From a virus, in IMG/VR virus record IMGVR_UViG_3300028920_000065, positions 1-64,000 of that record: a stretch of DNA of 64,000 bases, one strand, 5' to 3'. Below are positions 6,834 through 53,479 of the stretch, one piece after another (within the stretch, counting starts at the first letter, position 1; each line of letters opens with the position of its first letter). Position numbers and translations under genes: made by a program. The notes beneath the pieces were generated by a model. It ran no database searches and was not told the DNA's origin. It worked only from the letters and a program-made list of their open reading frames with translations.

Positions 6834-7310
6834 TTAAAATAATTCAATTTTAGATTTTTTAATTTTTTTAACAGTTGGATCCTTAGATACTTTTTTGTTT
6901 TTTGGTTCTTTTCTTTCTGGAGTAACAAGTTCCTTTTTTTCTCTTATCTTCTCAGACTGTATTAATTTCTTTTTTCCCTTCCTTTCATAAACAATTTCAT
7001 GTTCATATACAACACGTTCGACTAATTTTAATTGACATTCATTTATAACAATATCATTGAATTTTTCAAATGCTTCAATCAATTCATCATTCATTTTTTT
7101 AAGTTTTGTAATTTTTGGTTCTGAAAGTAAATTATGAAATTGAGCTGCTTTAAAAAGGGCTTTAAAACTTGTCATATATCCTGTAATATTTTTCCAAGTA
7201 TATTTATTTTCTTTCTCATTATAATTCTTCCTTTCTATCCATGCATCTTTTTTAGAGACAACAATTCTGAAATTTTCAGTCAAATTAATTATTCTTTCGT
7301 CTTTACTCAT
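6834..7310 (-). CDS. Hypothetical protein, 158 aa
   Basis: I place the start at the ATG at 7310, with GAGG eight bases upstream; the upstream in-frame codons overlap the previous gene more deeply. The N-terminal half (residues 5-60) has the pattern of a small phage beta-rich fold: NFRIVVSKKDAWIERK, then NITGYMTSFKALFKA. This loosely recalls DUF5405-type phage proteins, but I am not sure. The last 50 residues are very Lys-rich. It follows the gp62-like gene with an 8-base overlap. Confidence 0.7.
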   Translation of the reverse strand: MSKDERIINLTENFRIVVSKKDAWIERKNYNEKENKYTWKNITGYMTSFKALFKAAQFHNLLSEPKITKLKKMNDELIEAFEKFNDIVINECQLKLVERVVYEHEIVYERKGKKKLIQSEKIREKKELVTPERKEPKNKKVSKDPTVKKIKKSKIELF

Positions 7311-7935
7311 TTTTTTTACCTCTTTTCTTTTCCTTGGGTTTATCATCATAATTAAAAAATTCTATAAATTCTTCATCTGTTCCACATTCTTCAAGAGTTT
7401 CCATAAAACTCATAGCACGTTCAATGGAACAATTAAAATAATCTGCAACCCTATATATAATTGGATCATCACTTGTAACTTTCGCTCCCAAATTAGTTAT
7501 AAAAAACTTCTTTTTCGGTGTAAGTTCTTCAATAAATTTATAAATTTTCATTGGAGATACTTTTCCTACCATCAAATTAACTTTAAAAGCAGCTTGAAAT
7601 AATTCTGGATGATATGAAATATATCTTACTAATGGATACACAAGGTTTTCAACTACGGACATCGAATAAACTTTTCTTTGAGGATCATTTTCGAGATTCA
7701 TTGATTCAAGTTTTTCCCTATTAAACAAAATTTTTTCAATATTCTCATATGACCGTCCATTTTTAGATTTTGTTATTCTCATTATAACATAAAAATAATT
7801 ATTATTTTCTAAAATTTCATTAAGGCATTTAAATTCAGTTAAAATGGTTATTAAATCAGTTAAAGTTGTTTTACGATGTTTTATTTCAAGTTCTTTTTTT
7901 TCTTCTACTTGCCCTAAAAATTCCATTATATCCAT
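7303..7935 (-). CDS. 62: Clamp loader small subunit, gp62-like
   Basis: 210 aa (T4 gp62 is 187). Residues 100-185 align by eye with T4 gp62. ISYHPELFQAAFKVNLMVGK corresponds to the T4 stretch with LSQFPE and AMNLIG. Then come a Y-x-F-I-x-x-x-x-P-x-K-K segment and PIIYRVADYFNCSIERAMSF, matching the IIKLLAKRYQV-x-x-x-x-AI region. In T4 one gp62 and four gp44 subunits open the gp45 clamp with ATP. It lies between primase and a gene next to the polymerase, a fitting context. The N-terminal 90 residues and the charged C-terminus are not diagnostic. AAAGGAGGATAAA precedes the ATG. Confidence 0.6.
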   Translation of the reverse strand: MDIMEFLGQVEEKKELEIKHRKTTLTDLITILTEFKCLNEILENNNYFYVIMRITKSKNGRSYENIEKILFNREKLESMNLENDPQRKVYSMSVVENLVYPLVRYISYHPELFQAAFKVNLMVGKVSPMKIYKFIEELTPKKKFFITNLGAKVTSDDPIIYRVADYFNCSIERAMSFMETLEECGTDEEFIEFFNYDDKPKEKKRGKKNE

Positions 7936-9776: not shown

Positions 9777-10391
9777 TTATTCATAATCAACAACATCACC
9801 ATAATGAAATTGAGCTGATGGGCAATCCCATATGTTAATACAATTATATTGAAACTGATCTTTTAAAAATTCTAAAGATTCCCATTTTGTATTGACATAT
9901 TTATATTCCTTTTTAAGATACATATAATAAAAATTTTTAATCTGTTGGGTCCAAAATGCAAATACATTATCATATTTTTCATGGTTAAATCTTGCAAAAT
10001 ATTCTATTCCATAATTTTTATTTTTTTTATCTTTTCCAATAGACAATGATGCAACCAATGATTCAGAAAGCAAATCACATTTTACATCATCTGGATATTT
10101 TCTGAAATGTGTATGTTTTAATAATTTTTCTGCTATTTTAACATAATTAATCATTAAAATTTTTCTTAATTTAAGTCTTTCATTAGATAATTCATCATTT
10201 TCCTTATCCTTTAAACACAATTCTTTATATTTAACAATTAAATCAAAAAGTTCTTTCTTATCAACAAAATCCCTTTTTTCTTTTTTATCCCGTCTCTTTT
10301 TTAAAGTATCTCTGTGGATAATTGGCACTTCTGATTTCTTCTCCTTCCTAAGAACATTTAATCCTAAAAATTTTAATAATTCATAACTCAT
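9777..10391 (-). CDS. 55: Late-transcription sigma factor, gp55-like
   Basis: 204 aa (T4 gp55 is 185). Residues 75-160 carry the gp55 region-2 pattern: helix KIAEKLLKHTHFRKYPDDVK, then DLLSESLVASL, then N-H-E-K-Y-D-N-V-F-A-F-W-T-Q-Q-I-K-N and YLKKEYKYV. Gp55 steers host RNA polymerase to late promoters and needs gp33 and the gp45 clamp; a gp45 gene and a gp33 candidate are both in this window, as are many late-type boxes. The C-terminal clamp-binding peptide of T4 gp55 is not obvious. No good ribosome site; a late-like TAAATAATTATGA overlaps the start region. Confidence 0.75.
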   Translation of the reverse strand: MSYELLKFLGLNVLRKEKKSEVPIIHRDTLKKRRDKKEKRDFVDKKELFDLIVKYKELCLKDKENDELSNERLKLRKILMINYVKIAEKLLKHTHFRKYPDDVKCDLLSESLVASLSIGKDKKNKNYGIEYFARFNHEKYDNVFAFWTQQIKNFYYMYLKKEYKYVNTKWESLEFLKDQFQYNCINIWDCPSAQFHYGDVVDYE

Positions 10392-10393
10392 AA

Positions 10394-10663
10394 TTATTTA
10401 CTCAAGACGGTTTTTAAAATTTCAATTTGATTTCTATCTAATTTTGAAATAACTTCATATAATTCACTTCCTGTCATTCTATTTAATTTATTTGATATAT
10501 AATTATTAAAATTTATATCATCGAGATCTATTTCAATTTCTTCATCTATTTCATATAAAATATCAATATAAGCCTCCTCAGAAAAAACTTCCAGTTTTAA
10601 ATCTAATATTAAATAATTTTCATCACATTTAATTTGATTGATTTCTTTCAAATAATGATTCAT
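10394..10663 (-). CDS. Hypothetical acidic protein, 89 aa
   Basis: I use the ATG at 10663, which has AAGGAG upstream; an in-frame TTG five codons earlier overlaps that site. Residues 25-55 are strongly acidic (EIDEEIEIDLDD). The C-terminal third is a likely helix pair. Lies between RNase H and the gp55-like gene. Not recognised. Confidence 0.65.
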   Translation of the reverse strand: MNHYLKEINQIKCDENYLILDLKLEVFSEEAYIDILYEIDEEIEIDLDDINFNNYISNKLNRMTGSELYEVISKLDRNQIEILKTVLSK

Positions 10664-10674
10664 TTTTTTCTCCT

Positions 10675-11613
10675 TCAAAAATTAGTAAATTTTTCCATTA
10701 ATATCTGTAGTTCATATTTCATACACCATTTTTCAAAAAGACTTTTATTTAAACTTCTTTTTTGATGTGATCTATATTGATCCATTACATCCTCAGATAA
10801 TTGTTTTGGAATATTATTAAGGTCTATCAATCTCATATTCCGTTTAAAATTCATTTCTTGCTCTTGATAAAGTTTTTTAAAATTATATTCATTTTTTTCT
10901 TCATCATCAGTAAAATAATTTTTTAAAATAGTTTTTGGTCCAAAAGCTTTTTGTTTCTTGGTTGGGTTGACAAAAACATCATCATCAGACATAATATTTG
11001 GAATTCCATCTCCAGAATCTCCATAAAGAATATGAAATTTTCTATATCTTTTTGAATCTTCTTTGGTCAATAATTTCCATTCAGTAAAAATATCTTTTTT
11101 GGTTGAATGTTGATAAATTTTTTCTGAAGTTATATATTTTTTCTTAAAAGGATTATATAAAAAAACTCTATTTCCAACAAGCTGTAAAAAATCATGATCC
11201 CTGGATATTATTACCAACGTATCATCAATATGTTTAAATTTTGAAATAGTTGCAATTATATCATCACCTTCACAATATTTTCTTTGAAGAAAACAAAAAG
11301 GAAATATTTCTTCAAGTTCATTTATCAATTTATTAGAAAATTCAATTAAATCTATCATAGCAGGATCTTTTTTTCTATTTACCTTATAATAAGGAAAAAC
11401 TTTTTTCCTCCAAGAACCACCTTCAAGAGCAATAATTGTATCTGCAAAATTACTATCATTCTCTTTAGAGTAATATAATATCTTTTCTATAATATCTGAT
11501 CTAACATTATTTTCAACAACATCAATCCCAAATCCTTCATTTAAGCAAGATTTATAAAATTTATGCCAGGACATATGAAAAATATTCATGAAATCAATTA
11601 TTATACTATTCAT
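10675..11613 (-). CDS. rnh: RNase H / 5'-3' exonuclease (T4 Rnh-like)
   Basis: FEN-1-type flap nuclease of 312 aa (T4 RNase H is 305), which removes RNA primers from Okazaki fragments. Metal-ligand acidic motifs are visible: IIIDFMNIFH (D7), the W-R-K-K-x-F-P-x-Y-K-x-N-R motif (about residue 70), CEGDDIIATI (about 115), ISRDHDFLQLV (about 138) and ILYGDSGDGIPNI (about 195), whose GD-x-x-DG signature marks the H3TH DNA-binding segment. Start ATG with ATAGGAGTAAAA; driven by the promoter at 11642-11669. It overlaps the next gene's ribosome site. Confidence 0.93.
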   Translation of the reverse strand: MNSIIIDFMNIFHMSWHKFYKSCLNEGFGIDVVENNVRSDIIEKILYYSKENDSNFADTIIALEGGSWRKKVFPYYKVNRKKDPAMIDLIEFSNKLINELEEIFPFCFLQRKYCEGDDIIATISKFKHIDDTLVIISRDHDFLQLVGNRVFLYNPFKKKYITSEKIYQHSTKKDIFTEWKLLTKEDSKRYRKFHILYGDSGDGIPNIMSDDDVFVNPTKKQKAFGPKTILKNYFTDDEEKNEYNFKKLYQEQEMNFKRNMRLIDLNNIPKQLSEDVMDQYRSHQKRSLNKSLFEKWCMKYELQILMEKFTNF

Positions 11614-11641
11614 TTTTACTCCTATAATATTTCTACTTTAT

Positions 11642-11669
11642 TTTCTACACGATTTTTTAAGAAAGTAAA
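11642..11669 (-). promoter_or_regulatory. Early-type promoter for RNase H
   Basis: Minus strand TTTACT, 16-base spacer TTCTTAAAAAATCGTG, then TAGAAA (weaker -10 box). It directly abuts intergenic repeat copy B. Confidence 0.7.
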
Positions 11670-11680
11670 GTCTTTTAAGA

Positions 11681-11760
11681 AATATTTTTTAGTATCCTTG
11701 TCTTAGTATTAAAAAGTCCTAAAAATCGCTATAAATTGAAATATAAAAGGCTCAGAACAA
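11681..11760 (+). repeat. Intergenic ~80-nt element, copy B
   Basis: Plus-strand reading includes TAGTATTAAAAAG, AAAAATCGCTATAAATTGAA and GGCTCAGAACAA. It shares these blocks in the same order with copies A (53258-53340) and C (30204-30275) on the plus strand and D (44935-45015) on the minus strand. The ends can pair imperfectly (TTGTCTTAG with CTCAGAACAA). The stop codon of the gp27-like gene lies inside its right arm. Lies between two minus-strand genes, next to an early promoter. Confidence 0.65.
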
Positions 11761-12861
11761 ACTTTTGGACATATCCTTTCTCACTAAAGTTAGTAACATT
11801 GAATAATTAAAATTAACATCAATTTTATGTACTATTTCATAAAGAAGATAAAAACCAGAATATTTACTAATATTCTTTTGATCATTTTGACCAAGAAAAT
11901 ATTTTAATTGTATTAAATCGCCTATTTGTAAATCAGATGAGGCAATTTGCATTTGAGCCTGAATAGCATCAGTTAACATATAATCTTCAATAAATTTTGA
12001 ACTCTTTAATGTCAAAACATTTCTTTTAGAAGAAACAAAATCAAATTTTGGATTTGTAACATTTAAGGAAATATCATTAAGATTATATTTTTCTTCAAAA
12101 AGATCAATATCATAATGAATATATCCATTTATTCCATCTTCATAAAAATCTTTTCTCATCATTGGTTCAATCTTTGATATTCCACGAATTGAATTTCTAT
12201 TTCCATCACCTTCAGTTATTATAGATACATTTGAAAGTTTTTTAACATATTGTTGTGCAAATAAAGATTCAATATTATAAATTAAATAATTATTACCTCT
12301 TTGAAAAATAAATTTAGGATCATCAGAAAGATATTCTATTTCTTCTATTGTTTCTATAATATCATAACTATTTGCAATGTAGGAATATGTATCAGTATCA
12401 TTTAAAACTTTATTTTCAGTTATTATATTATAATTAGAAAAAAGAGTTTCTAACATATAGGAATTTGTTTTATTTTCAAAAGATTTTTTATATGTTTCTG
12501 CTTCAAGAAAATTAGCAAAATCCTCATGAATAAATTCAAGTTTATATTTATAAATTTCATTCGTTTTTGTTTCAGAAATATTTGGTATGGCTGTTATAAT
12601 AAAAGTGAAATCTCTAATAGTTGTTTCTTCTCCAGTATCCCAAACAATATGAAGTTTTTCTTTTCCTATAAATGGAAAATTTTCTCTATAATTAAATTGT
12701 TCTTCAATTGTCAATTCTCCATAAAGCCAAATAGATCCAATAGATTCAATTATTTCAATTTCCCGGAAAAGATTTTGAATATTCAAATATTTATTTTCAT
12801 AATTGATCAATTCAATTTTTCTTAATCTAAGATTTCCTTGTTGATTTTCAACTGTTGTCAT
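11752..12861 (-). CDS. 27: Baseplate hub protein, gp27-like
   Basis: 369 aa (T4 gp27 is 391). The N-terminal pattern around GSIWLYGELTIEEQ and FPFIGKEKLHIVW (residues 40-75) and the C-terminal LQIGDLIQLKYF ... SGFYLLYEIVH (about 310-345) match the hub/tail-tube-like folds of T4-type gp27 proteins: binding to an extended partner, then IGD-x-I-x-L and SG-x-Y-LL. Gp27 trimers form the cup under the tail tube. The gp48/54-like gene lies immediately upstream, consistent with a baseplate pair. The assignment is by pattern, not search. ATG with AAGGAACCCT. Confidence 0.6.
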   Translation of the reverse strand: MTTVENQQGNLRLRKIELINYENKYLNIQNLFREIEIIESIGSIWLYGELTIEEQFNYRENFPFIGKEKLHIVWDTGEETTIRDFTFIITAIPNISETKTNEIYKYKLEFIHEDFANFLEAETYKKSFENKTNSYMLETLFSNYNIITENKVLNDTDTYSYIANSYDIIETIEEIEYLSDDPKFIFQRGNNYLIYNIESLFAQQYVKKLSNVSIITEGDGNRNSIRGISKIEPMMRKDFYEDGINGYIHYDIDLFEEKYNLNDISLNVTNPKFDFVSSKRNVLTLKSSKFIEDYMLTDAIQAQMQIASSDLQIGDLIQLKYFLGQNDQKNISKYSGFYLLYEIVHKIDVNFNYSMLLTLVRKDMSKSLF

Positions 12862-14386: not shown

Positions 14387-15295
14387 TTATTTAGAAGCCC
14401 AAACAATAAATCCCTGACCCCATTCCTCCGAACATTGCCATCCTTCACCACAATTATTTAAATAAAATTTTTGTATCTTAACAACAATTTTTTCTAGTAT
14501 CTCAGGTAATCCAGTAAATGGATATATTTCAGAATAAGAAATGAGTGGAATTGGAAATATTCCAAAAGATCCTTTTTCTTTCCAATCAAAAGCATCCATT
14601 AATATTTTATATAAATCAGAATCATAATCACTCCTGAAAAGTTTTTTTGAATCTGGTTTAAATTCTATATTTGAATCAATTATTTTTTTAAACAATGATA
14701 AAAAGAAATTCAGTGGTTTAAACACACTCTGAACACTAACTTTTTTTGGAACAACATAATTAATAAAATGACCACCATTTTTTAAAATTCTATATTGCTC
14801 AGAAATTAACTTTGAAATATCATCAGCATTTTCAAAATGTTCAAGCAATCCAACATTAAAACTAGAATCAAATGTATTATCTTCAAAAGGAAGATTCATT
14901 CCATCACCAACTACAAAATTTCCTTTAAATCCAAGTGAATTAAAATTTTCTTTGGCTACTTCTATGGCATTTTCTGATTGATCCAATAATGTACAATTCC
15001 ACCCATGATATGCATGATATAAAGAAAGATTTCCTCTTCCACAACCAATTTCAATGCATTTTCCTTGTTTTTTGTTATAAAATAATTTATCAAATAGATC
15101 ATAGTGTTTTTGAAAAACTAATTGCATTTGTGTTTCTGGTTCTCCAGTTGTAAAATAATTATGCTTCTTTTCTTTTCTATCTTTCCAGTCTAGGTTGAAA
15201 TATTCCTTTGATCCATCTTTCATATTATTCTCCGTTTTATGAATAGAATCAGAATCTTTATATTTTCGATAAATACACGATCTAAAATTATACAT
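14387..15295 (-). CDS. SAM-dependent methyltransferase (class I)
   Basis: 302 aa. The SAM-binding motif I is CIEIGCGRGNLS (about residues 78-89), followed by the acidic ribose-binding strand end TLLDQSE, motif II VVGDGMNLPFEDNTFD, and motif III-like LLEHF. This is a Methyltransf_11-type small-molecule methylase. The substrate is unknown. Its neighbourhood of nonulosonate genes (neuC, neuB) suggests modification of a sugar or glycan, but that is inference. The ribosome site AAGGAGACAT lies 13 bases from the ATG, an unusually long spacing, with a two-codon ATG-AAA-TAA between them. Confidence 0.85.
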   Translation of the reverse strand: MYNFRSCIYRKYKDSDSIHKTENNMKDGSKEYFNLDWKDRKEKKHNYFTTGEPETQMQLVFQKHYDLFDKLFYNKKQGKCIEIGCGRGNLSLYHAYHGWNCTLLDQSENAIEVAKENFNSLGFKGNFVVGDGMNLPFEDNTFDSSFNVGLLEHFENADDISKLISEQYRILKNGGHFINYVVPKKVSVQSVFKPLNFFLSLFKKIIDSNIEFKPDSKKLFRSDYDSDLYKILMDAFDWKEKGSFGIFPIPLISYSEIYPFTGLPEILEKIVVKIQKFYLNNCGEGWQCSEEWGQGFIVWASK

Positions 15296-16732: not shown

Positions 16733-17911
16733 TTACTCCATAAAAGTTTTTTGTAAATTTACACTTTCAATTTTTGCCAGAACATGAGCAATTTTTTTAC
16801 CTGCATTTCCAATTCCAAAAGTGTCATTTGATATGCCTAGTTTATTTCTCATATGAGTTTCAACTAAATCAACAATCATATCTGAATTATAATCACTCCA
16901 CAGGACATTACCACATCTCTCACGCATTCTTTGCCTATTTCCAATATCAACTACAGGAACACCAAGAAAACTTCCTTCACGGATGCCTGATGAACTATTA
17001 CCAACCAGACATTTGCAATTATTAATCAATCTGGCATAATCCTCAGGAGAAATATTTTTAACGAACTGAATCTTGTCATTACTTTTATGTGTTTCCCTGA
17101 ATATCCTAATTCTCTTTGATATATCATCAGTACCTGCATCAATATTTGGCCATAACATGAAAGTCTGCATATTAAGTTTCTCAACAGCTTTCAGTGTCTC
17201 TTCAATCTGCTTTCCGGCATCCATATATTCTGTTGTTACCGGATGTTGCATAACGACAATGTATGGCTTATTTGGATCAAGAATTGCTCCTGCACCTCCT
17301 GCTCTTTTGAAAATATCTGCATCTAATGATAAATCAATATCAACAAGTAAGTCCATTGCAGGACACCCAACATTAAAAACCATATCAGGATCTTCCCCCA
17401 TTGTAATAACGCGTTGTTTCGACTTTTCTGTTGCAGGGAAGTGAATATGTGCTAATTTTGTAATTGCATGGCGAACACTTTCATCAATTGATCCTGTAAG
17501 TTCACCACCTTGAGTATGAGCAAGTGGAATATTCATATATGTTGAAGCAATGGCGGTAGAAATAGTTTCAAAACGATCAGCAATTGTTAAAACAATATCA
17601 GGTTTGAGCATATTAAATATAGTAGGAAGCTCCATGAGTCCTATACCGGTCGATTTAGCCATAGTTAATGGTGAACTACCTTCAAGTATAAAATTCACCG
17701 TAGAATCGATTTTAAACCCATCAGATTCGATTATTTTTCTAACATTACCATAACGCTCAAGAAGAGCAGATGCACCAACAATGAGTTGTAGTTCGAGCTT
17801 GGGATGTTCTTGAATAGCTCTCATTGCTGATTTGATTCTAGCATAATTTGCACGAGATGCGACTACTACACATATCTTTCTTACTTCTGGAAATTTAATT
17901 ATTGATGTCAT
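16733..17911 (-). CDS. neuC: UDP-N-acetylglucosamine 2-epimerase, NeuC-type
   Basis: 392 aa. Hydrolysing UDP-GlcNAc 2-epimerases produce ManNAc (or a related N-acetyl sugar) and UDP, the first step toward sialic or legionaminic acids. Family features in order: N-terminal CVVVASRANYARIKSAM, LKPDIVLTIADRFE (about 107), the HTQGGE-x-T-G-S-I-D-E-S-x-R-H motif (about 138-152), VMQHPVTTE, LVGNSSSGIREG (about 305-316) and GVPVVDIGNRQRMRE. I take the second of two ATGs because GGAG spacing is better. G+C is visibly higher than in neighbouring replication genes, suggesting recent transfer from a bacterium. Confidence 0.93.
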   Translation of the reverse strand: MTSIIKFPEVRKICVVVASRANYARIKSAMRAIQEHPKLELQLIVGASALLERYGNVRKIIESDGFKIDSTVNFILEGSSPLTMAKSTGIGLMELPTIFNMLKPDIVLTIADRFETISTAIASTYMNIPLAHTQGGELTGSIDESVRHAITKLAHIHFPATEKSKQRVITMGEDPDMVFNVGCPAMDLLVDIDLSLDADIFKRAGGAGAILDPNKPYIVVMQHPVTTEYMDAGKQIEETLKAVEKLNMQTFMLWPNIDAGTDDISKRIRIFRETHKSNDKIQFVKNISPEDYARLINNCKCLVGNSSSGIREGSFLGVPVVDIGNRQRMRERCGNVLWSDYNSDMIVDLVETHMRNKLGISNDTFGIGNAGKKIAHVLAKIESVNLQKTFME

Positions 17912-17963
17912 CATTTACTCCATATCTTATATTTTCTATTTTCTCCACTTTTTGTACATTGCA

Positions 17964-18263
17964 TCATTTAGCTTCTCTCTGTTTTCTAATTTTTTCTTGT
18001 TTTTTACATTTCTTCACTGCCGATCTCCACACAAAAAACGCTCTTATGAATGGAATGATAGGAAAGAATACAAAAAATCCAATCACACTCAACATAAGAA
18101 ATAATGCCTCGGCTATCTCTGTTGCAAAAGATAAAAAATATTTAATCTCTATCCAATATCCTTCAAAATTCCAGAGTGTTCTCCAATATCCCAATTTGGC
18201 TTTGTTACTTGGACAATTTCTGATCTTGTCACCATCATATATTAGATCTTTATTTTTCATCAT
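17964..18263 (-). CDS. Membrane protein between neuC and neuB, 99 aa
   Basis: AGGAGAAGA precedes two adjacent ATGs. Residues 42-75 form one long or two short hydrophobic helices (FATEIAEALFLMLSVIGFFV...), followed by a strongly basic tail (KKCKKQEKIRKQREAK) that would lie in the cytoplasm. Its place between two sugar-synthesis genes suggests an envelope-related role, but there is no family match I recognise. Confidence 0.65.
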   Translation of the reverse strand: MMKNKDLIYDGDKIRNCPSNKAKLGYWRTLWNFEGYWIEIKYFLSFATEIAEALFLMLSVIGFFVFFPIIPFIRAFFVWRSAVKKCKKQEKIRKQREAK

Positions 18264-18293
18264 TCTTCTCCTGTAATTTTAAAGCATTTCATG

Positions 18294-19118
18294 CTAGATC
18301 CTGAATCTGTTATCTCCCCATCTTCCAACATATTTTTTCTTCACTTTCAATTCTTCTTCAGAAACAACTCTGGTTCCAGTACCATTCACCACTTCAACGA
18401 AATCCCTGTACTCACACAATTCTCGCAATTCCATAGGATCAATAGAAACTTTAACATCAGGTGTGGTCATTGTTTTATCTAGGATGAAATGTTTTTCAAT
18501 CATTGAAATATTCTTACATAGAGCGACTTTAGCAACTTCAATTCCAAGGGAATGATCAGAGAAACCAATTTCATGATTCCACAATCCTTGCTCAAAATTC
18601 ATATTATCAATCATAAATAAATTTGAATTTTTTGGTTTAGTTGGATATTCAGAAATACAATGCATGATGGTATGCTTAACATCAAAATCTTCTAGGTTAT
18701 TTAATAGATTAACTATATCTTCACTATCCATCATACCAGTGGATACTATAATATGTTCAAAATTTTCAGATAATTCCTCAAGCATTCCATAACTTTCATT
18801 ATCTGTACTAGCAACTTTGATATATTCCATTCCAAGTGTTGAAAGAAATGGAATCAATCTTCTATCAAAACATGTTGTTAAAAACTCGACATTATTTTCT
18901 TTACAGCATTCAATTAGGTCAATATGATCATTCTCAGATAGTTCTGTCTTCTTGTACCAATGTATGTCCCAACCATCGCCAACAAGATGATCTGCTTTGA
19001 AACTTTGAAACTTAACGAAATCAGCACCACAACTTGCAGCAGTTTTAATCATTTCCTTTGCTATCTCCATATCTCCACAATGATTAGTACTACATTCAGC
19101 AATTATTTTAGTTCTCAT
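18294..19118 (-). CDS. neuB: N-acetylneuraminate synthase-family enzyme, NeuB-like, without SAF domain
   Basis: 274 aa from the ATG at 19118, which has GGGAGAAATCAT upstream. Condenses phosphoenolpyruvate with an N-acetyl-mannosamine-type sugar. TIM-barrel motifs: IIAECSTNHCGDMEIAKEMI (residues 5-24), GADFVKFQSF (31-40), IVSTGMMDSEDI (about 129), MHCISEYP (about 155), GFSDHSLGIEVA (about 188) and IEKHFILDKT (about 208). Ordinary NeuB/PseI proteins are about 340-350 aa with a C-terminal SAF (antifreeze-like) domain that closes over the active site; this protein stops just after the barrel. Its first 11 bases overlap the end of gp47, so it is likely translated with recombination genes. Confidence 0.9.
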   Translation of the reverse strand: MRTKIIAECSTNHCGDMEIAKEMIKTAASCGADFVKFQSFKADHLVGDGWDIHWYKKTELSENDHIDLIECCKENNVEFLTTCFDRRLIPFLSTLGMEYIKVASTDNESYGMLEELSENFEHIIVSTGMMDSEDIVNLLNNLEDFDVKHTIMHCISEYPTKPKNSNLFMIDNMNFEQGLWNHEIGFSDHSLGIEVAKVALCKNISMIEKHFILDKTMTTPDVKVSIDPMELRELCEYRDFVEVVNGTGTRVVSEEELKVKKKYVGRWGDNRFRI

Positions 19119-20121
19119 ATGATTTCTCCCAATATTTTTTAAACATTTCTTCAAATTCCTTTTTAAAATCATCATCATCATGATCAAGCTTACACAAAAA
19201 TTCATGATTTAATTCTTCATTAGTTAATATATCAGTATCAACTAATTCTTCACACTGATTTATTATATCATTTTTATATGTCAATGTCAACTTCACAGGA
19301 GAATATTCTCCTAATTTTGTTTCAACCTTTACCCAAAATTCTTCATTACTAGAATTTATAAACACATCTGATATTGTATTATGGCATTTTTTTAACAATA
19401 AAAAATCTTTTTCATCATTAATAATTATTTTTTCATAATACCGTTCTTTCATTTCAAAAGATTCAATTTTATTTGTTTCTGTATTAAGTAAATGGCAATA
19501 TTTTTTTTCAAGTTCTCCTCTATTTTTTTGATATAAGGAACCACAATAAAAAATATTATCTTTTTGCTGAGACATATGATAATGACCCGAAATAATTTTT
19601 TTATATTTCCAATAATCAGTTTTAAAGAGAGAATCTTTTTTTGAAATAGCTTGTCCATGTCTAAATCCAGAAAAATCAAAATGTCCAAAAAGATAATTTT
19701 TTTCGTTATTATGTTTGGATATTTGTTTAGATATTCTAGGAGCATTCAATTCATTTATCCAAGGACAAAAAATTAAATTATCCTTAACATAAACATCATC
19801 AATAATTAATTTTCCTCCTTCAAACATAACTGGAAGAGAGGTTATTTTATTCGTATTTGTATAATAACAATCATGATTTCCAGCAATGACAATATATTCA
19901 CACATTTGAGATATTTCTTTATGAATTTTTTTAAATGTATCTATTATCATAAAATCACCAGCTAATCTTTTATCATATGTATCTCCACAGTTTACAACAA
20001 GATCAACATCCCTTTTTTTAATAATTTCCTTTACATATTCCAATCCTTTTTTCTGATAATTAATAAAAGATTCAGATGAATTTGTTCCATGATGTAAATC
20101 TGAAATAATTAAAATTTTCAT
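19108..20121 (-). CDS. 47: Recombination nuclease subunit gp47 (SbcD/Mre11-like)
   Basis: 337 aa (T4 gp47 is 339). Mre11-type phosphoesterase motifs: ISDLHHG (residues 6-12), VVNCGDTYDKR (about 45), IVIAGNHDCYY (about 84), FGHFDFSG (about 140) and IISGHYHMSQ (about 173). With gp46 it resects DNA ends for recombination-dependent replication and host DNA breakdown. I choose the ATG at 20121 because AGGAGGATCA lies directly before it; an upstream in-frame start overlaps the previous gene. Overlaps neuB. In T4, 46 and 47 are adjacent; here about seven genes separate them. Confidence 0.93.
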   Translation of the reverse strand: MKILIISDLHHGTNSSESFINYQKKGLEYVKEIIKKRDVDLVVNCGDTYDKRLAGDFMIIDTFKKIHKEISQMCEYIVIAGNHDCYYTNTNKITSLPVMFEGGKLIIDDVYVKDNLIFCPWINELNAPRISKQISKHNNEKNYLFGHFDFSGFRHGQAISKKDSLFKTDYWKYKKIISGHYHMSQQKDNIFYCGSLYQKNRGELEKKYCHLLNTETNKIESFEMKERYYEKIIINDEKDFLLLKKCHNTISDVFINSSNEEFWVKVETKLGEYSPVKLTLTYKNDIINQCEELVDTDILTNEELNHEFLCKLDHDDDDFKKEFEEMFKKYWEKSYEN

Positions 20122-20129
20122 TGATCCTC

Positions 20130-20558
20130 CTAATTCCATCTTTTTTTATTTGTATTATTTGTAATATTCCATTCTTCAACCTTCACAAATCCATTTGTTG
20201 CCCTTTGGATCTTTTTAGCATTTTTTTCTGAAATTGTCAAAAAACATCTGGATCTATAATTAGTCAATGTCCCAAAGGCAATTTTAGATTTAATAGCGAG
20301 TTGTCTATAAGTTATTTTATTTTTAATCATATACCATTGTAATTTTTCAATGGCAGTATTTAATTCAATAATTGGTTCTTCAAGTCCATAATAAGATAAA
20401 ATTTTTTCTTCATCTTCATCTGTTATTTTATATCGTTTAAATGCAGAAGATAAATAATATTCTCCAAAACCAAGAATTCTAGAAAAATTATTTAAGGAAT
20501 AACATTCTTTCCAGCATTTAAATTTTACAAATCTTCTTAAACTAGTTCTTATTTTCAT
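20130..20558 (-). CDS. Helix-turn-helix DNA-binding protein, 142 aa
   Basis: Two HTH-like segments can be read: FSRILGFGEYYLSSAFKRYK (residues 24-43) and the clearer ITYRQLAIKSKIAFGTLTNY (about 81-100), the latter with the Q-L-A ... T-L-x-N-Y layout of Cro/CI-type helices, followed by a basic SEKNAKKIQRA helix. Likely a transcriptional regulator or DNA-binding adaptor. ATG with GGAGATTTA. Directly upstream of gp47. Confidence 0.65.
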   Translation of the reverse strand: MKIRTSLRRFVKFKCWKECYSLNNFSRILGFGEYYLSSAFKRYKITDEDEEKILSYYGLEEPIIELNTAIEKLQWYMIKNKITYRQLAIKSKIAFGTLTNYRSRCFLTISEKNAKKIQRATNGFVKVEEWNITNNTNKKRWN

Positions 20559-26128: not shown

Positions 26129-27724
26129 TTACATCATGCCATTATTCATAGGCATTACATTTTCTTCTTCATCATAAATTACTGCTGTTTCCATAGTCAA
26201 AACAATTCCAGCCAAAGAAACAGCATTCAAAAAAGCCGCCTTTGTAACCTTTGCTGGATCTATAATTCCAGCCTCATACATATTATCAACATAATCCATG
26301 GATATTACATCAAAACCATATCCAATTTTTTCAAGATTATTTATTACAACATCAACACGTCCACCGGCATTTGCAACAATTTGTTTCATTGGAGAAAGAA
26401 TTGCTTCTTTTATAATAGTTTCACCAATATTTTCAGCATTTAATTTTGTTGAAATTTTTGCAAGACAAGTTCCACCACCTTCAACAATTCCATCTAAAAG
26501 TGCTGCTTTTGTTGCATTTAAGGAATCTTCTACTCTATCTTTCTTTTCTTTCAATTCTATTTCTGTCATTGCTCCAATATAAAGAACACCAATTCCACCA
26601 GATAATCTACCAAGCCTTTTTTGAAGTCTTTCTTTTTCATGATCAGATGTAGTTTCTTTCATTGTTTTTTTAACAAGATCAATTCTCTTGCTAACATTTG
26701 ATTTCAATCCAAGTCCACCAACAAGAGTTGTTTGATCTTTTGTGACAATAACTTTTCTAACACCACCAAGATGATTTGTTCCAATTTTTTCAAGTGAAAT
26801 TCCTTCATTTTTACCACAAACAGTTGCTCCTGTATATGCAGCAATGTCTTGAAGGATATTTATCTTTTCTTGACCAATTTCTGGTGACTTTGTTGCACAA
26901 AATCTTATTTTACCTTGAAGTTTATTTTGAATTATAAAATGGAGAACAGAATCTTCAATTTCATTTGCTATCATGAAAACTGATTTATTAGTCTTATTTG
27001 CACTTGTCAAAACAGGAATGAGTGCTTCTGGTGAATTTACTGTACCATTATAAATTAAAACTATAGCATCCTCAAGAATTGCTTCATTTCTTTCAATATT
27101 GGTGACAAGATATTGAGATATCCATCCCTTATCATATCCCATTCCCTCTTCAACTTTAGCAAATGTATTTGTATCAGGAGAATTTTCAATTGTAATTACT
27201 CCATCATCCCCTACCTTTTTAAGAGCATCAGATATAAGGCTTGCAATTTCTTCATCTCCATTGGCAGAAATTTTTGCAATCTGATAAATTTCTTCATCTG
27301 TTGTTATTTCTTTTTTTGATTTTTCAATTTCTTCAACAACAACTTTAGCAATTTTATCCATTTCTCTTTTTATTTGCATTGGATCATGACCTGCGGCAAG
27401 ATATTTCATTCCTTCTTTAATCATTGCTTGAACAAGAACAGTTGCAGTTGTAGTTCCATCACCTGCTTCATAATTTGTCTGATTTGCTGCTTCCTTAAGA
27501 AGCATCGAACCAGATTTCATTGCTGAATCTCTAAAATTAATTGATTTGGCAACAGTAACTCCATCCTTTGTAACATTTGGAAGTCCAAATTCTCTTTGTA
27601 TCAATGCGGTCCTACCTCTTGCGCCAAGTGTTACCTTAACAGCATCAGCGGTTTTATTGAGCCCTTCAAGAATTTTTTCTCTTGCTTCATTTCCAAAAAT
27701 TACATCATTTGTTTTATCATACAT
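26129..27724 (-). CDS. groEL: Phage chaperonin GroEL (Hsp60)
   Basis: 531 aa, close to full bacterial length (548). Diagnostic stretches: VKVTLGARGRTALI (residues 29-42), TKDGVTVAKSI, YEAGDGTTTATVL with the ATP-hydrolysis loop, KISANGDEEIA, RLGRLSGGIGVLYIGA (about 370), DRVEDSLNATKAALLDGI carrying the conserved catalytic Asp region, and EGGGTC. The C-terminus is EENVMPMNNGMM rather than the usual GGM repeats. It folds proteins in a chamber capped by GroES; the next gene upstream encodes that cap. Phage GroELs are known in a few large phages. Flanked by a terminator and co-transcribed with groES and the UvsY-like gene. Confidence 0.97.
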   Translation of the reverse strand: MYDKTNDVIFGNEAREKILEGLNKTADAVKVTLGARGRTALIQREFGLPNVTKDGVTVAKSINFRDSAMKSGSMLLKEAANQTNYEAGDGTTTATVLVQAMIKEGMKYLAAGHDPMQIKREMDKIAKVVVEEIEKSKKEITTDEEIYQIAKISANGDEEIASLISDALKKVGDDGVITIENSPDTNTFAKVEEGMGYDKGWISQYLVTNIERNEAILEDAIVLIYNGTVNSPEALIPVLTSANKTNKSVFMIANEIEDSVLHFIIQNKLQGKIRFCATKSPEIGQEKINILQDIAAYTGATVCGKNEGISLEKIGTNHLGGVRKVIVTKDQTTLVGGLGLKSNVSKRIDLVKKTMKETTSDHEKERLQKRLGRLSGGIGVLYIGAMTEIELKEKKDRVEDSLNATKAALLDGIVEGGGTCLAKISTKLNAENIGETIIKEAILSPMKQIVANAGGRVDVVINNLEKIGYGFDVISMDYVDNMYEAGIIDPAKVTKAAFLNAVSLAGIVLTMETAVIYDEEENVMPMNNGMM

Positions 27725-28518: not shown

Positions 28519-29880
28519 ATGCCATCATTCAATACATCAATTTATGGAATATGTGGAAGAAGAAGAGTTGCAAACCCAGAACTAAAAATATTAGTACTAA
28601 CAAACAGTACAGATAGTATGCGACCACGACCAGAAAGTCAAATCATTTCAGACAGCAACAATATTTATTTTGTTTGTACGGATGAGGCAACAAAAAGTTT
28701 TATAATAAAATCTAATTTTGATTTTTCTGTAATAACTGAAAAAGAACTAGATTTAGGAGGCACTACAAAAAGAACTTTAGAATCACCAGCTTGGGCAAAA
28801 ACAGATAAAAGTGAAATAATTATAGGTGGTGATGAAAACACTAACAATGCTGGTGGTTATCCAGCAGCAGATTACAATAAAGAAATTACACGAATTACAG
28901 CATCTACATTATCAGCAGTTTCAACATACCCTACTGGTCATAATCCAGCTGTTAGGACATCAGGTACATATAATAACTCCACAATATATAATCAATTATT
29001 AAATAGTTCTGGTGATTTAATAATGGTCGGAAAAGGATATGCCCAAGGTAATAATTATTCGAGACATAATTCAAGTTTCGTTGAGCAAAGCTACAAATTT
29101 ATTGATTATCCATATATTATTTCCGGTAGTGACATCACAGGCGATATTTTGTATATTGCTGGTCAACAGTACGTAACCAGAATAGATACGAGTACAGATA
29201 CGATAGACGCAGCTTACGATTTTGTTAATGGCGCAATTACTTTTTATCTTAGACGTGTTATTTACGGATCAGATGGCGCCGTGTATGTCGCTGGTTATTA
29301 TATATCAGGCGCAAGCGCAGCAAAAGGATGGATAGCAAAGCTATCGTCCGATCTAACGACAAAAACCTGGGAAAAAGATTTCAATATTACAGCGTCAAAT
29401 TCAGATACTAGATTTTTTGGTATTTGTGAGCATCAAGGGAAACTGTATGTGACTGGAAAATATACAGACCTGAGCAGCAATACATATGGTTTTGTGGCAC
29501 GTGTAAATATGTCAACTGGGAATTTCGAACAGTGCATTGGAATAACCGAAGTAACGAACTCATATATATTTAATAATATTATTGAATCCATTAATAATAA
29601 TCTTTATGTTGGCGGATATTCCCGCCCCTATAACGCTGCAAGAAACGAGCCAACAGTAATAGGATTATTTAACCAGACAGATTTAACATGGTTAAACGGA
29701 AAGTCAACCTCAGGTAACGAATACTCATTTGCAACTGAGGCTTTTACTCAGTCCGCACCAGGATCTACTTATGCCGCCAGTGGTGCAACAATATCAAATC
29801 CCTCGACTGGAACTTCTACAAAACAAGGTAAGGATCTTGGAAATTCAGGAACATTAACAGATACAGTTTATACGGAGTAA
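28519..29880 (+). CDS. Probable virion propeller-like protein (tail fibre or decoration)
   Basis: 453 aa, rich in Ser/Thr/Gly/Tyr with regular repeats of the type D-I-L-Y-I-A-G, G-A-V-Y-V-A-G-Y and G-K-L-Y-V-T-G-K about every 45-50 residues (about 155-370). That is the spacing of a beta-propeller (kelch/SBBP-like). The stretch around residues 200-370 is clearly less A+T-rich than the rest of the window. A late-type promoter precedes it. A second protein of this composition lies at 61756-63381 among tail genes, so a receptor-binding or fibre role is likely but inferred. ATG with AGGAGTTTTCAAAC. Confidence 0.7.
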   Translation: MPSFNTSIYGICGRRRVANPELKILVLTNSTDSMRPRPESQIISDSNNIYFVCTDEATKSFIIKSNFDFSVITEKELDLGGTTKRTLESPAWAKTDKSEIIIGGDENTNNAGGYPAADYNKEITRITASTLSAVSTYPTGHNPAVRTSGTYNNSTIYNQLLNSSGDLIMVGKGYAQGNNYSRHNSSFVEQSYKFIDYPYIISGSDITGDILYIAGQQYVTRIDTSTDTIDAAYDFVNGAITFYLRRVIYGSDGAVYVAGYYISGASAAKGWIAKLSSDLTTKTWEKDFNITASNSDTRFFGICEHQGKLYVTGKYTDLSSNTYGFVARVNMSTGNFEQCIGITEVTNSYIFNNIIESINNNLYVGGYSRPYNAARNEPTVIGLFNQTDLTWLNGKSTSGNEYSFATEAFTQSAPGSTYAASGATISNPSTGTSTKQGKDLGNSGTLTDTVYTE

Positions 29881-33955: not shown

Positions 33956-34384
33956 ATGTTATATTTTGATATAGATGGAGTAATAAGAAATTTACAAAAA
34001 TCATTAAAAATTGATTTAGAAAATTGGAATGATTTTAATGAATTTCATTATGATAAAATAAAAAATGATCCAAAAAGGCATCTTGAAAATGCTCCATATT
34101 ATGAAAATATGAGAAAGATCATAAATTCTTATGATCAAAAATATTTTATTACATGCTCTTCTGAAAGATTTAAAGATTATACAGAAAATTTTCTTAAACG
34201 TATATTTAATAATTTTTTAGTTATATATGTTGAAAATCCAGAAAGCAAATTATCCTATCTTGGAAGTGATGATTATCTAGTTGATGATTATCCTTTTTAT
34301 AGAGATAAGAGAGTTATTTTAGTTGAAAGAAAATATAATAAAGATTATGTCAAAAATTATGAAATAGTTTGGAGATTAAATTAA
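33956..34384 (+). CDS. HAD-superfamily phosphatase (5'-nucleotidase-like)
   Basis: 142 aa from an ATG with GGAGAAAATT upstream. Motif I FDIDGVIRNL (D4, D6) carries the nucleophile and acid/base aspartates. ITCSSER (about 63) fits motif II, KLSYLG supplies the Lys of motif III, and the paired acidic motif IV is DDYLVDDYPFY (about 107). This layout resembles small deoxyribonucleotidases of the NT5C type. Placed before a DNA methyltransferase and with a dNMP kinase downstream, a role in nucleotide-pool adjustment is plausible. Confidence 0.75.
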   Translation: MLYFDIDGVIRNLQKSLKIDLENWNDFNEFHYDKIKNDPKRHLENAPYYENMRKIINSYDQKYFITCSSERFKDYTENFLKRIFNNFLVIYVENPESKLSYLGSDDYLVDDYPFYRDKRVILVERKYNKDYVKNYEIVWRLN

Positions 34385-34395
34385 AAGGAGTTTAT

Positions 34396-35331
34396 ATGGT
34401 AAAATGTATTGACCAGAAAATTTTTAAAAATGCTGCTGTTTATTGTGGAGATTCGATAGAACTTATTAAAAAAATTCCAAATAATTCAGTTGATTATTCT
34501 ATTTTTTCACCACCATTTCCCGAATTGTATTCATATTCAAATCTAATTAATGATATGGGAAATTCAAAAAATTATGATGAATTTTTTGAACATTTTGATT
34601 ATTTGATAAAAGATTTGAATAGAATAATAAAACCTGGAAGACTTGTTTCCATGCATTGTATGGATATTCCTGCAATGAAATCAAGAGATGGATATATTGG
34701 CTTGAAAGATTTTTCTGGAGATTTAATAAGACATTTTCAAGATGCTGGTTTTATTTATCATTCAAGGACAACAATATGGAAAGATCCATTGATTGAAGCT
34801 GTTCGTACACGGGCAATTGGATTGGCTTATAAACAATTAAAAAAAGATTCATCTATTTGTAGGACTGGAATTCCTGATTATATTATTACGATGAGAAAAA
34901 AAGGAAATAATCCCGAGCCAATTGAAAATAAAGATGGACTTGGAAAATTTATTGGAGAAGAGGATAAGGAACCTACTTCAAAAAATTTAAAATATAATCA
35001 TCATGTTTGGCAAAAATATGCTTCTCCTGTTTGGATGGATATTAGACAAATGAGAACATTAAATTATAGAGCTGCTAAAGATGAAAATGATACTAAACAT
35101 GTATGTCCTCTACAATTAGATGCTATTGAAAGGTGTTTAAGTTTATGGACTAATGAGAATGATATTGTTTTTACTCCTTTTATGGGAGTTGGATCTGAGG
35201 TATATTCTGCTTTGGAAATGAATAGAAGAGCAATAGGAATAGAATTGAAGAAAAGTTATTTTGATCAAGCAATAAAAAATATTTCAAGATTTACAATTGA
35301 AGAAGGTAATAATAATTTTAAATTATTTTGA
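34396..35331 (+). CDS. DNA methyltransferase (N4-cytosine/N6-adenine, beta-type order)
   Basis: 311 aa from the ATG at 34396 with AAGGAGTTTAT. Catalytic motif IV is SPPF (FSPPFPELYSYSN, about residue 33) at the N-terminus. SAM-binding motif I, VFTPFMGVGSEVYSALE with GIEL (about 256-285), is at the C-terminus, the permuted order of beta-class MTases. SPP(Y/F) is most usual in m4C enzymes, DPPY in m6A, so m4C is a fair first guess. No restriction nuclease is beside it. It is directly followed by an SNF2-type helicase, a pairing reminiscent of phage DarB-like antirestriction proteins, where both domains are fused. Confidence 0.88.
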   Translation: MVKCIDQKIFKNAAVYCGDSIELIKKIPNNSVDYSIFSPPFPELYSYSNLINDMGNSKNYDEFFEHFDYLIKDLNRIIKPGRLVSMHCMDIPAMKSRDGYIGLKDFSGDLIRHFQDAGFIYHSRTTIWKDPLIEAVRTRAIGLAYKQLKKDSSICRTGIPDYIITMRKKGNNPEPIENKDGLGKFIGEEDKEPTSKNLKYNHHVWQKYASPVWMDIRQMRTLNYRAAKDENDTKHVCPLQLDAIERCLSLWTNENDIVFTPFMGVGSEVYSALEMNRRAIGIELKKSYFDQAIKNISRFTIEEGNNNFKLF

Positions 35332-36735: not shown

Positions 36736-37283
36736 AAATATATGCATTTATTGGAGTAGTGGGCTCAGGAAAAGATTTTTATACTAATCAAAAAATAACA
36801 GAATTAACTAAACTTGGTTATAGATGTAAACATATGAATTTTGCTGATACTGTACGCAATGAGATTTGGCATATATTTGGGTTTAAACCTAAAGATGATG
36901 CTGAGTATGATCTTTTTAAAAAAACGTCCATAGAAGTTAATTTGAATCGTCACAATAATCCAATTATAACCGGAAGAGAATTTATGGAGAGATTTGGAAC
37001 TGATTTTGTTAGAAAATACGATAAAGAATTTTGGATTAAAGCATGGGCAAAAAAAGTAAAAGAAATAGAAAATGATTATGATGTTATTTTAATATCAGAT
37101 TGTAGATATGATAATGAAGTAAAATATCTTTTAGAAAATTTTAATGCTACTTTTATGTATTGTAATTATATTTCTGATAGATATGAAATTAGAGAAACAA
37201 AACCAGAAAAATTTGCACAAAGATTTCTTAATTTAGATGATAAAACAGATATAACACAAAAATTGAAGGAGATTTTAATATGA
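36732..37283 (+). CDS. 1: Deoxynucleoside monophosphate kinase (T4 gp1-like)
   Basis: 183 aa. P-loop AFIGVVGSGKDFYTNQ (residues 4-19), then GREFMERFGTDFVRKYDKEFWIKAW (about 77-101), which is the signature of phage dNMP kinases, and VILISDCRYDNEV (about 117), the Walker-B/lid region. T4 gp1 phosphorylates dTMP, dGMP and the modified hydroxymethyl-dCMP. Overlaps the helicase stop and the queD start (ATGA). Confidence 0.85.
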   Translation: MKIYAFIGVVGSGKDFYTNQKITELTKLGYRCKHMNFADTVRNEIWHIFGFKPKDDAEYDLFKKTSIEVNLNRHNNPIITGREFMERFGTDFVRKYDKEFWIKAWAKKVKEIENDYDVILISDCRYDNEVKYLLENFNATFMYCNYISDRYEIRETKPEKFAQRFLNLDDKTDITQKLKEILI

Positions 37284-37669
37284 TTATTTGGAAAGAATTT
37301 ACTTTTGATGCCGCTCATCAATTAAAAAATACAAATGATTGTGATTATGGTAAATGTTCAAATGTTCATGGACATACATATAAATTACAAGTAGGAGTTG
37401 AGGGATTTATTGATAGTAATACACATATGATTATGAATTTTGTCGATCTTAAAAAAATAGTAAATGAAGAAATTATTGATAAATTAGATCACACATTTTT
37501 AAATGAAAGTATGCTAGATTTTAATTTAGATTCTAATCATACAACATGTGAAAGAATGATTATGGTATTTAAAATAATTCTTGAAAAAACTATTTTAAAA
37601 TTATATCCAAATGTCCATAAAATTAGAATCAAATTATGGGAAACACCAACGTCTTATTGTGAAATATAA
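37280..37669 (+). CDS. queD: 6-carboxy-5,6,7,8-tetrahydropterin synthase, QueD
   Basis: 129 aa, full length for the family. Zinc-binding and catalytic residues are all present: FDAAHQL (His15), CSNVHGHTY (catalytic Cys with H-G-H, about 27-34), KLDHTFLNE (Asp-His, about 73) and CERM, ending WETPTSYCEI. QueD makes the second intermediate of the preQ0 / 7-deazaguanine pathway used by some phages to modify their DNA. The next two pathway genes, queE and queC, are broken just downstream, and no folE or transglycosylase (DpdA) is in this window. Confidence 0.93.
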   Translation: MIIWKEFTFDAAHQLKNTNDCDYGKCSNVHGHTYKLQVGVEGFIDSNTHMIMNFVDLKKIVNEEIIDKLDHTFLNESMLDFNLDSNHTTCERMIMVFKIILEKTILKLYPNVHKIRIKLWETPTSYCEI

Positions 37670-37701
37670 ATAAAATTAATGAATGTTTATAAGGAGAAGT
37701 T

Positions 37702-37851
37702 ATGAGAATATCATCAATATTTAAATCTATTCAGGGTGAAGGACCTAATTGTGGAAGAAATACATTATTTATTCGAGTTTTTACAGATAGATGTTTTCCA
37801 AATTATAAAAGATGTATCACATGCATTGGCTCAAAAGATTGGAGCTGACCA
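37702..37851 (+). pseudogene. queE: queE N-terminal remnant (7-carboxy-7-deazaguanine synthase)
   Basis: ATG at 37702 with AAGGAGAAGTT. The first residues [19 protein letters not shown] then TLFIRV are the conserved QueE N-terminus. The frame degenerates after the FIR strand and ends at TGA 37849-37851, long before the roughly 200-residue normal length. The radical-SAM CxxxCxxC site is not intact as expected. Downstream sequence in another frame is QueC, so a deletion has joined queE to queC out of frame. Confidence 0.8.
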
Positions 37852-38170
37852 TTTAGTGACTGGAGTTTGTGAAACAGATTATTCTGGATACCCAGATTGT
37901 AGACATGAATTCATATCTTCAATTCAAAAAACTACGAATCTTGGATCAGAACAGAATATCACAATACATACTCCTCTTATGCTTTTAAATAAAGCAGAAA
38001 CTTTTAATTTAGCGGAACACGAGGGAATATTGGATATTATTATTAATAATTCTCATACTTGTTATAATGGTTCATCTAAATCCAATGAATGGGGTTATGG
38101 ATGTGGAGAGTGTCCATCTTGCAAATTAAGAGAGAAAGGATATATAGAATATAAAGAAAGATATAAATAA
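37796..38170 (+). pseudogene. queC: queC C-terminal remnant (7-cyano-7-deazaguanine synthase)
   Basis: The frame running to 38170 is recognisable from about 37800: [20 protein letters not shown], then [41 protein letters not shown], and the zinc site [17 protein letters not shown]. These are the conserved second half of QueC. The N-terminal P-loop half (LSGG-x-DS) is missing. A GTG at 37736 opens the frame but its first 20 codons are queE sequence read out of frame. Unlikely to be active. Confidence 0.85.
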
Positions 38171-43702: not shown

Positions 43703-44631
43703 ATATTAAAACATACCTCATTGAAGAAAAATATAATCCCGATGATTTAGAAACTATTATTCTTCCAGAGAGATTAAAATCTTTATTGAATGGTATAAAA
43801 GAAAGTGGTAATATTACAAGTTATTTGTTTTCAGGACCAGGAGGAACTGGAAAAACAACTTCTGCTGTTGCCTTGTGTAAAGTACTTGGACTTGATTATG
43901 AAATATGGCCCTGTTCAATTAACAATAAGGTTGATTATGTTAATGAGGTTATAGCACGTAAAGCTGAAAATGGTTCGTTATATGGTGATTATAAGGTTAT
44001 TATTGGAGATGAAGCGGATAGACTTTATCTTGATGCACAGCAAGCATTAAGAAATATTATGAGTGGGAATCTTAATCATTGTAGATGGATTCTCACTGCT
44101 AATTTTCCAGAAAAAATTATTGATCCTCTTAAGACGGGCAGAACTCCTTTGATTGATTTTTCTTATTCTGAAGAGGAGAAAAAAGAAGTTGTTCCTATTT
44201 TATTTAAAAGATTAGTTGAAATTTGTGATTCAGAAGGAATAAAAATTGATAATAAAAATTCATTTGCAAAATTTGTTTTTGAAAATATTCCAAATATAAG
44301 ATTTATATTAAAATCAATACAAATGATTGCTGTACAAAATGCAGGTAAAATTCCTGAAAATATTACAATTAAAAGGGAACAGCTAACATTAGAATATTTC
44401 AAGACAATTTTAAATTCTGATTATAAAGAACTAACGAGATTTGTCAATAAGACTCCACAAACTGTAATTATGCGTTTTATTGATGATAATCTTGATGAAT
44501 TAGTGAAGGATCCAGAAAAACAATTATTAATTATGCAATATGCAGCTAATTTCCAAGGATTAGAAAAAGGAGTTGAAAGTATTTATACAAAAGCATTTTT
44601 ATTAAATTTAAAAAAGATAATTGGAGGTTAA
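43699..44631 (+). CDS. 44: Clamp loader ATPase subunit gp44-like
   Basis: 310 aa (T4 gp44 is 319). AAA+ motifs: Walker A FSGPGGTGKTTSA (residues 44-56), Walker B VIIGDEADRL (about 95-104), sensor 1 WILTANF (about 133) and a conserved R-x-P-L-I-D-F turn. Four gp44 and one gp62 load the gp45 clamp. The ATG overlaps the previous stop as ATGA. Confidence 0.95.
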   Translation: MNIKTYLIEEKYNPDDLETIILPERLKSLLNGIKESGNITSYLFSGPGGTGKTTSAVALCKVLGLDYEIWPCSINNKVDYVNEVIARKAENGSLYGDYKVIIGDEADRLYLDAQQALRNIMSGNLNHCRWILTANFPEKIIDPLKTGRTPLIDFSYSEEEKKEVVPILFKRLVEICDSEGIKIDNKNSFAKFVFENIPNIRFILKSIQMIAVQNAGKIPENITIKREQLTLEYFKTILNSDYKELTRFVNKTPQTVIMRFIDDNLDELVKDPEKQLLIMQYAANFQGLEKGVESIYTKAFLLNLKKIIGG

Positions 44632-45033: not shown

Positions 45034-45153
45034 ATGAAAGTAAATGAAAAAAAGATGAGAAACAGAGATGGAACAGGACCGGCCGGAAAAGGTCCAAAAA
45101 CTGGTAGAGGTCAAGGTGGATGTAAAAAGGGCGGAAAAAAGAAAGGAAATTAA
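45034..45153 (+). CDS. Small Gly/Lys-rich peptide, DUF5320-like motif, 39 aa
   Basis: ATG behind AGAGGAGAAAAAA. The peptide contains RDGTGPAGKGPKTGRGQGGC (about residues 11-30). This recalls the G-D-G-T-G-P-x-G-x-G-P-x-T-G-R-G-x-G-x-C signature I remember as DUF5320, followed by a Lys/Gly tail. In bacteria that motif occurs in small proteins near metal- or nitrogenase-related genes; its job is not established. Its stop overlaps the stop of the convergent gene at 45150-45153. A short-peptide gene easily missed by annotation. Confidence 0.65.
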   Translation: MKVNEKKMRNRDGTGPAGKGPKTGRGQGGCKKGGKKKGN

Positions 45154-45410: not shown

Positions 45411-45439
45411 ATTATAGTATTTTTTGACAATTTTGTCAA
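45411..45439 (-). promoter_or_regulatory. Perfect consensus sigma70 promoter with palindrome
   Basis: Minus strand TTGACA, 17-base spacer, TATAAT. The -35 box is half of a 16-bp inverted repeat TTGACAA-TT-TTGTCAA (45424-45439), a possible operator. The plus-strand late box of gp4 starts right beside it. Confidence 0.85.
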
Positions 45440-53340: not shown

Positions 53341-53479
53341 TAAGTAGTTTGTATGGTAGTTTATATGTTTATCAAAGCAAATTGATCATTATATCATAAA
53401 ATTTATTTTATGTCAATATTTTTAATAAAAAATTTCTTTAATAAAAATAAAGCTTTATAAATTTATTTAAAAATATCAA

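Follow-up and report, generated by a model that had tools for sequence, protein, structure and literature searches.

Our analysis indicates that three adjacent minus-strand genes of a T4-like phage, which encode a NeuB-like nonulosonate synthase, a small membrane-type protein and a NeuC-type epimerase, probably form a horizontally acquired and separately promoted block that is related to a phage-borne nonulosonic-acid cassette. The block lies in a stretch of 64,000 nucleotides, referred to here as the window, which covers positions 1-64000 of a linear virus record that comprises 76,921 bases and is itself a fragment. The window encodes homologues of gp20, gp23, gp32, the prohead protease, the translational regulator, UvsY and gp47, and its large terminase shares about 33% identity with gp17 of cyanophages. 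The original prediction of a nonulosonate-type NeuB-NeuC pair with a membrane protein between the two enzymes was borne out by matches to PF03102 and TIGR03568 and by a 99-residue protein at positions 17964-18263. All three genes are intact rather than disrupted.

The neuB gene (18294..19118, minus strand) runs from an ATG at 19118 to a stop at 18294, is preceded by GGGAG and encodes a protein of 274 residues that consists of a TIM barrel only (PF03102, E 1.3e-55). Its earlier designation as NeuB holds for the barrel domain, but the protein is a SAF-less variant that scores 214 bits against NCBIfam TIGR03569, under the equivalog cut-off of 399.65, with the profile match ending at position 274 of 329, because the C-terminal SAF domain is missing. 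An AlphaFold2 model likewise shows a confident barrel (pLDDT 92) and no C-terminal domain. The closest PDB entry in both sequence and fold is 6ncs (E 5.4e-24), a similarly short (285-290 aa) N-acetylneuraminic acid synthetase from Leptospira borgpetersenii, followed by meningococcal NeuB. Unlike the window protein, however, 6ncs is bacterial, and the two share only 28% identity; it was left out of the NeuB tree described below. The residues of the PEP and metal site are all kept in the window protein (E8, Q38, T82, F84, K101, Y158, S187, H189, E208 and H210, corresponding to E25, Q55, T110, F112, K129, Y186, S213, H215, E234 and H236 of the known NeuB; PMC6795526). At other positions, Asn184 is replaced by Ser and Glu134 by Asp, the Asn74 loop is deleted, and the SAF/AFP-like C-terminal domain is absent together with Arg314, which positions ManNAc in meningococcal NeuB (PMC6795526). 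Judging from these residues, the SAF-less NeuB has probably kept its chemistry, and its sugar acceptor is uncertain because the domain carrying Arg314 is missing.

NeuC, a hydrolysing UDP-sugar 2-epimerase of 393 residues (16733..17914, minus strand), matches TIGR03568 over its full length (positions 1-365 of 365; 392 bits, cut-off 236) and Pfam Epimerase_2 with an E-value of 1.4e-68. An alignment with five other NeuC proteins contains 44 identical columns, including the GG..G.DE..RH and GNSS motifs. Among the invariant residues are D113, R114, H133, G136, G137, D144, R148, H149, K153 and H224 as well as G305, N306, S307, S308 and E313. The protein encoded between the two enzymes (99 aa; 17964..18263, minus strand) has one hydrophobic stretch and belongs to no family, with no match in Pfam, NCBIfam or PHROG and no phmmer match among the relatives' loci tested.

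Base composition sets the three genes apart as a unit. NeuC had been described as less A+T-rich than its surroundings, which is correct (GC 35.3%, versus a mean of 26.7% for those genes in the window that encode 100 aa or more) but does not apply to NeuC alone. The GC content of neuB is 32.4%, and the GC3 z-scores are raised in neuB (3.0), in the gene for the membrane-type protein (4.4, although this gene is short) and in neuC (2.2), as compared to 0.05 for the methyltransferase gene discussed below, with neuB showing the highest GC3 value of all window genes in the size class from 100 aa upwards. The foreign composition thus spans all three genes, which fits their acquisition as one block.

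The upstream neighbour of neuB is the gene for gp47, an SbcD-like nuclease subunit (19108..20139, minus strand; PHROG 100, E 2.5e-48), whose TAA stop codon (19110-19108) overlaps the start of neuB by 11 bases, exactly as originally stated. The functional tie to gp47-dependent recombination that had been proposed on this basis was not borne out, since the overlap represents ordinary gene-junction anatomy. Within the 3' part of the gp47 gene, 144 bases upstream of neuB, there is a perfect sigma-70 promoter sequence (19262..19290, minus strand; TTGACA-17-TATAAT, 12/12 match, with TGA before the second hexamer). The window contains four such perfect sites, as opposed to 0.30 expected, and none of 100 shuffled sequences reached this number. 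The other three, also on the minus strand (44420-44447, 45411-45439 and 53388-53416), are situated amid plus-strand genes, and one of them precedes a lone minus-strand reading frame at 45150-45341. The T4-type late promoter TATAAATA is not in excess (16 found versus 17.8 expected). The promoter match before neuB suggests early expression by the host RNA polymerase, unlike the head-gene setting seen in relatives, so that the early timing assumed in the original prediction appears probable.

Related cassettes were largely invisible in the phage collection of 50,697 records that was searched by tblastn, as it yielded only two remote NeuB homologues (LR756508, 27.8% identity; MH319754, 29.1% identity), no phage NeuC and a single record with the GT42-like protein described below. 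A DNA search of this collection with the region produced no match. The sole NeuC match, a Moritella record that also matched NeuB, turned out to be of bacterial origin, a contig on which neuA, neuB and neuC form an ordinary locus. The NeuB gene of the huge phage LR756508.1 (7914-8813) lies amid four GT29 sialyltransferase genes (7247-7879, 9978-10661, 10642-11322 and 11319-12068; PF00777, E 1.6e-26 to 5.6e-32). Scans of virus contigs with single proteins (NeuB, NeuC or terminase) and with a first NeuC alignment gave no matches either, and cassette phages were reached only with alignments of closer relatives. In IMG/VR, a NeuB relative is encoded by 462 contigs; among the 80 that were kept, most NeuB proteins are short like that of the window, and many contigs have a NeuA-like gene nearby.

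The gene order NeuB-NeuC-NeuA recurs in 13 metagenomic phage contigs with a window-type NeuB. NeuA adjoins NeuC or sits within about 1.2 kb of it in the relatives, and all 23 virus loci with a NeuC of the window's clade also show a NeuA match, although some of these loci are near-copies. In at least six cases (L101, L103, L104, L112, L113 and L154), the cassette is found among head genes, between the terminase and the portal or their positional equivalents. The window differs in that its block stands beside gp47, away from the head genes. Additional genes in the 13 loci include a 2-hydroxyacid dehydrogenase (8/13) and a match to a methyltransferase profile (7/13). A further sugar-rich contig of a large phage (L114) combines a window-type NeuB with NeuA but has no NeuC of the window's clade.

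Phylogenetic analysis places the window NeuC in a clade with the phage cassettes and a set of bacterial proteins (support 100/99, branch 0.87), apart from the canonical NeuC proteins, with no resolution of its branching inside this clade. In the NeuB tree, the window protein groups with six cassette NeuB proteins (99/91), within a wider set of 11 rows that are all viral (96/94). This tree comprises 52 rows with limited bacterial sampling and no short bacterial NeuB, so that its virus-only character holds just for the rows used. Some phage cassettes pair the same NeuC clade with a different, bacterial-like NeuB, which identifies NeuC as the more constant partner.

The relatives encode a further protein that could complete the pathway. 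Members of a protein family that matches neither Pfam nor PHROG occur in 12 of the 13 cassette contigs, in eleven cases within the cassette locus and in that of L112 in another locus (L171) on the same contig; the exception, L127, has no such gene in its 17.8 kb. For a model of one member (pLDDT 79), the top 16 PDB matches are GT42 sialyltransferases, with CstI and CstII being closest. The similarity is modest (TM 0.34-0.52, rmsd 5-18; best sequence E 0.05), so that the GT42 likeness represents a fold lead rather than proof. A GT42-like gene is present in 52 virus loci that span 10 kb or more; in the stretch examined, 24 of these contain NeuA, NeuB or NeuC and 28 contain none of the three. The single record retrieved from the phage collection with one family member is the cultured Microcystis phage Mvi-Yong1342-1, in which the GT42-like gene stands directly before the terminase genes. 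In L113, it is located downstream of the capsid gene.

As originally noted, a class I SAM methyltransferase (14387..15295, minus strand; Methyltransf_11, E 1.1e-20) is encoded downstream of NeuC, with a YopX-like gene and small reading frames in between. Its inclusion in the sugar module is backed by one bacterial case, an Alsobacter locus in which a full-length homologue (39% identity; L096, 7209-8096) follows directly downstream of NANS-NeuC, the NeuC being of the same type as those of the phage cassettes. At an E-value of 1e-25, the methyltransferase family was detected in one of 385 genomes sampled from Alsobacter's class, namely that of Alsobacter, and in none of 396 genomes of the phylum of locus L093, the latter survey having had no positive control. 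Plasmids and phages gave no match to the methyltransferase. On the basis of the Alsobacter locus, the methyltransferase probably belongs to the sugar module.

Several other genes of the window were noted along the way. A GroEL-type chaperonin (26129-27724, minus strand; PF00118, E 1.2e-51) shows about 40-42% identity to the best-matching phage GroEL proteins. Beside minus-strand genes, there is a plus-strand gene for a 453-aa protein with a high GC content of 35.6% (28519-29880), whose product has no Pfam match and contains repeats that, by eye, recall a beta-propeller. An N6/N4 DNA methylase is encoded at 34369-35331 (plus strand; PF01555, E 2.6e-20). A QueD/PTPS gene (37280-37669) adjoins a queE-queC region (37693-38170, plus strand), in which a short frame that by eye recalls the N-terminal part of QueE continues into a QueC that covers only positions 102-209 of the PF06508 profile. 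The arrangement suggests either a deletion or a join made during assembly.

How might the block function? Acting on a UDP-HexNAc, NeuC would release the sugar in its free 2-epimeric form (ManNAc from UDP-GlcNAc, or an analogue), and the SAF-less NeuB would then condense this sugar with PEP to a nonulosonic-type acid. In the related phages, the product of the next gene, NeuA, would make the CMP-sugar, and its transfer would fall to the GT42-like protein, whose gene usually lies in the same region. As in the original reading of the window, neither NeuA nor a glycosyltransferase was found in the 76,921 bases of the record, with no match to PF02348 or the phage-NeuA profile, no GT1 or GT2 match above cut-off and no GT42-like protein; the Pfam scans took in most but not all reading frames, and these absences are not final because the record is a linear fragment. 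For the NeuA and transfer steps, the phage would depend either on genes in the part of its genome that is not sequenced or on enzymes of the host. The methyltransferase encoded nearby would probably methylate the sugar or glycan, and the sigma-70 promoter may allow the host RNA polymerase to transcribe the block early. Counting against this reading are the absence of NeuA and the GT42-like protein from 76.9 kb, while relatives keep NeuA near NeuC, the missing SAF domain, the different position, the lack of resolution for the window NeuC inside its clade and the 28 of 52 GT42-like loci without Neu genes in the stretch examined.

The purpose of the pathway is a matter of more tentative interpretation. 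One possible role is virion glycosylation, in which NeuA from the missing part of the genome would activate the sugar and a transferase would decorate capsid or tail proteins. This idea is consistent with the position of the relatives' cassette between terminase and portal, with the GT42-like genes near the capsid gene of L113 and the terminase genes of the Microcystis phage, and with the virion glycans reported for mycobacteriophages (Freeman 2023, cited in PMC12619734 and PMC11256854); however, the window block has an early-type promoter, is distant from the head genes and lacks a GT42-like partner in 76.9 kb. More broadly, and with similar caution, diverse uncultured phages may possess a self-contained SAF-less NeuB/NeuC/NeuA/GT42-like system, often with a methyltransferase, that builds a sialic-acid-like sugar and couples it to their own virion proteins, with the T4-like phage having an early-expressed derivative of it.

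Somewhat less probable is a remodelling of the host surface, in which free nonulosonate made early would join the NeuA and transferase pathway of the host and alter LPS, capsule or flagellin, thereby blocking superinfection. The promoter, the absence of NeuA and a transferase from 76.9 kb and the membrane-type protein in the block would agree with such a role, as would the many virus contigs in which NeuB occurs alongside NeuA and further sugar genes, and the interpretation of pelagimyophage glycosyltransferases as host-surface modifiers (PMC7029224). The nearest NeuB relatives, however, lie in head-gene regions with a NeuA of their own. The original proposal that the pair feeds the host pathway is therefore not supported as stated: the window NeuB groups with SAF-less phage proteins from NeuB-NeuC-NeuA cassettes, most of them accompanied by a GT42-like protein, which makes self-contained phage glycosylation at least as likely. 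It is rather unlikely that the product of the SAF-less synthase is some alpha-keto acid other than sialic, legionaminic or pseudaminic acid and serves another purpose. The missing SAF domain, the changes at Asn184, Glu134 and the Asn74 loop and a fold that also resembles KDO8P and DAHP synthases would be compatible with this possibility, but the relatives constantly pair the synthase with NeuC and a NeuA-like cytidylyltransferase. That the block is a decaying, functionless remnant, as its foreign composition and the lack of NeuA and a transferase in the fragment might suggest, is improbable given its intact frames, conserved catalytic residues, ribosome-binding sites and consensus promoter. 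DNA hypermodification as a target carries little weight, as there is no supporting gene near the NeuB/NeuC pair.

An acquired block related to the phage cassettes resembles bacterial sialic and legionaminic acid synthesis (NeuC-NeuB-NeuA; neu, sia and leg loci) in its NeuC, which scores above cut-off, and its NeuB barrel with PEP and metal residues. In contrast to these loci, it resides in a phage genome, has a NeuB that lacks the SAF domain and groups with virus sequences, and is found without NeuA in 76.9 kb. The capsid or tail proteins glycosylated in the mycobacteriophages Che8 and Rita (Freeman 2023, cited in PMC11256854 and PMC12619734) point to a possible target; the portions of these sources considered here name no nonulosonate pathway or GT42-like enzyme. 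In Acinetobacter phages, EpaA/EpaB and O-acetyltransferases similarly represent phage gene products acting on capsular nonulosonic acids, but, according to the sections consulted, they alter an existing host sugar, whereas the window phage encodes steps of synthesis (PMC12053666, PMC6586298). No description of a phage NeuB-NeuC-NeuA cassette was found in the literature, within partial coverage.

Phage genes for whole nonulosonic acids with a SAF-less synthase would constitute a distinct variant of sialic-acid chemistry. If this is true, phage-made sialylation would become testable, with the Microcystis phage Mvi-Yong1342-1 offering a place to study the GT42-like part. The finding bears on the surface changes that infecting phages bring about, and also on the glycans of virions, so far known from few phages.
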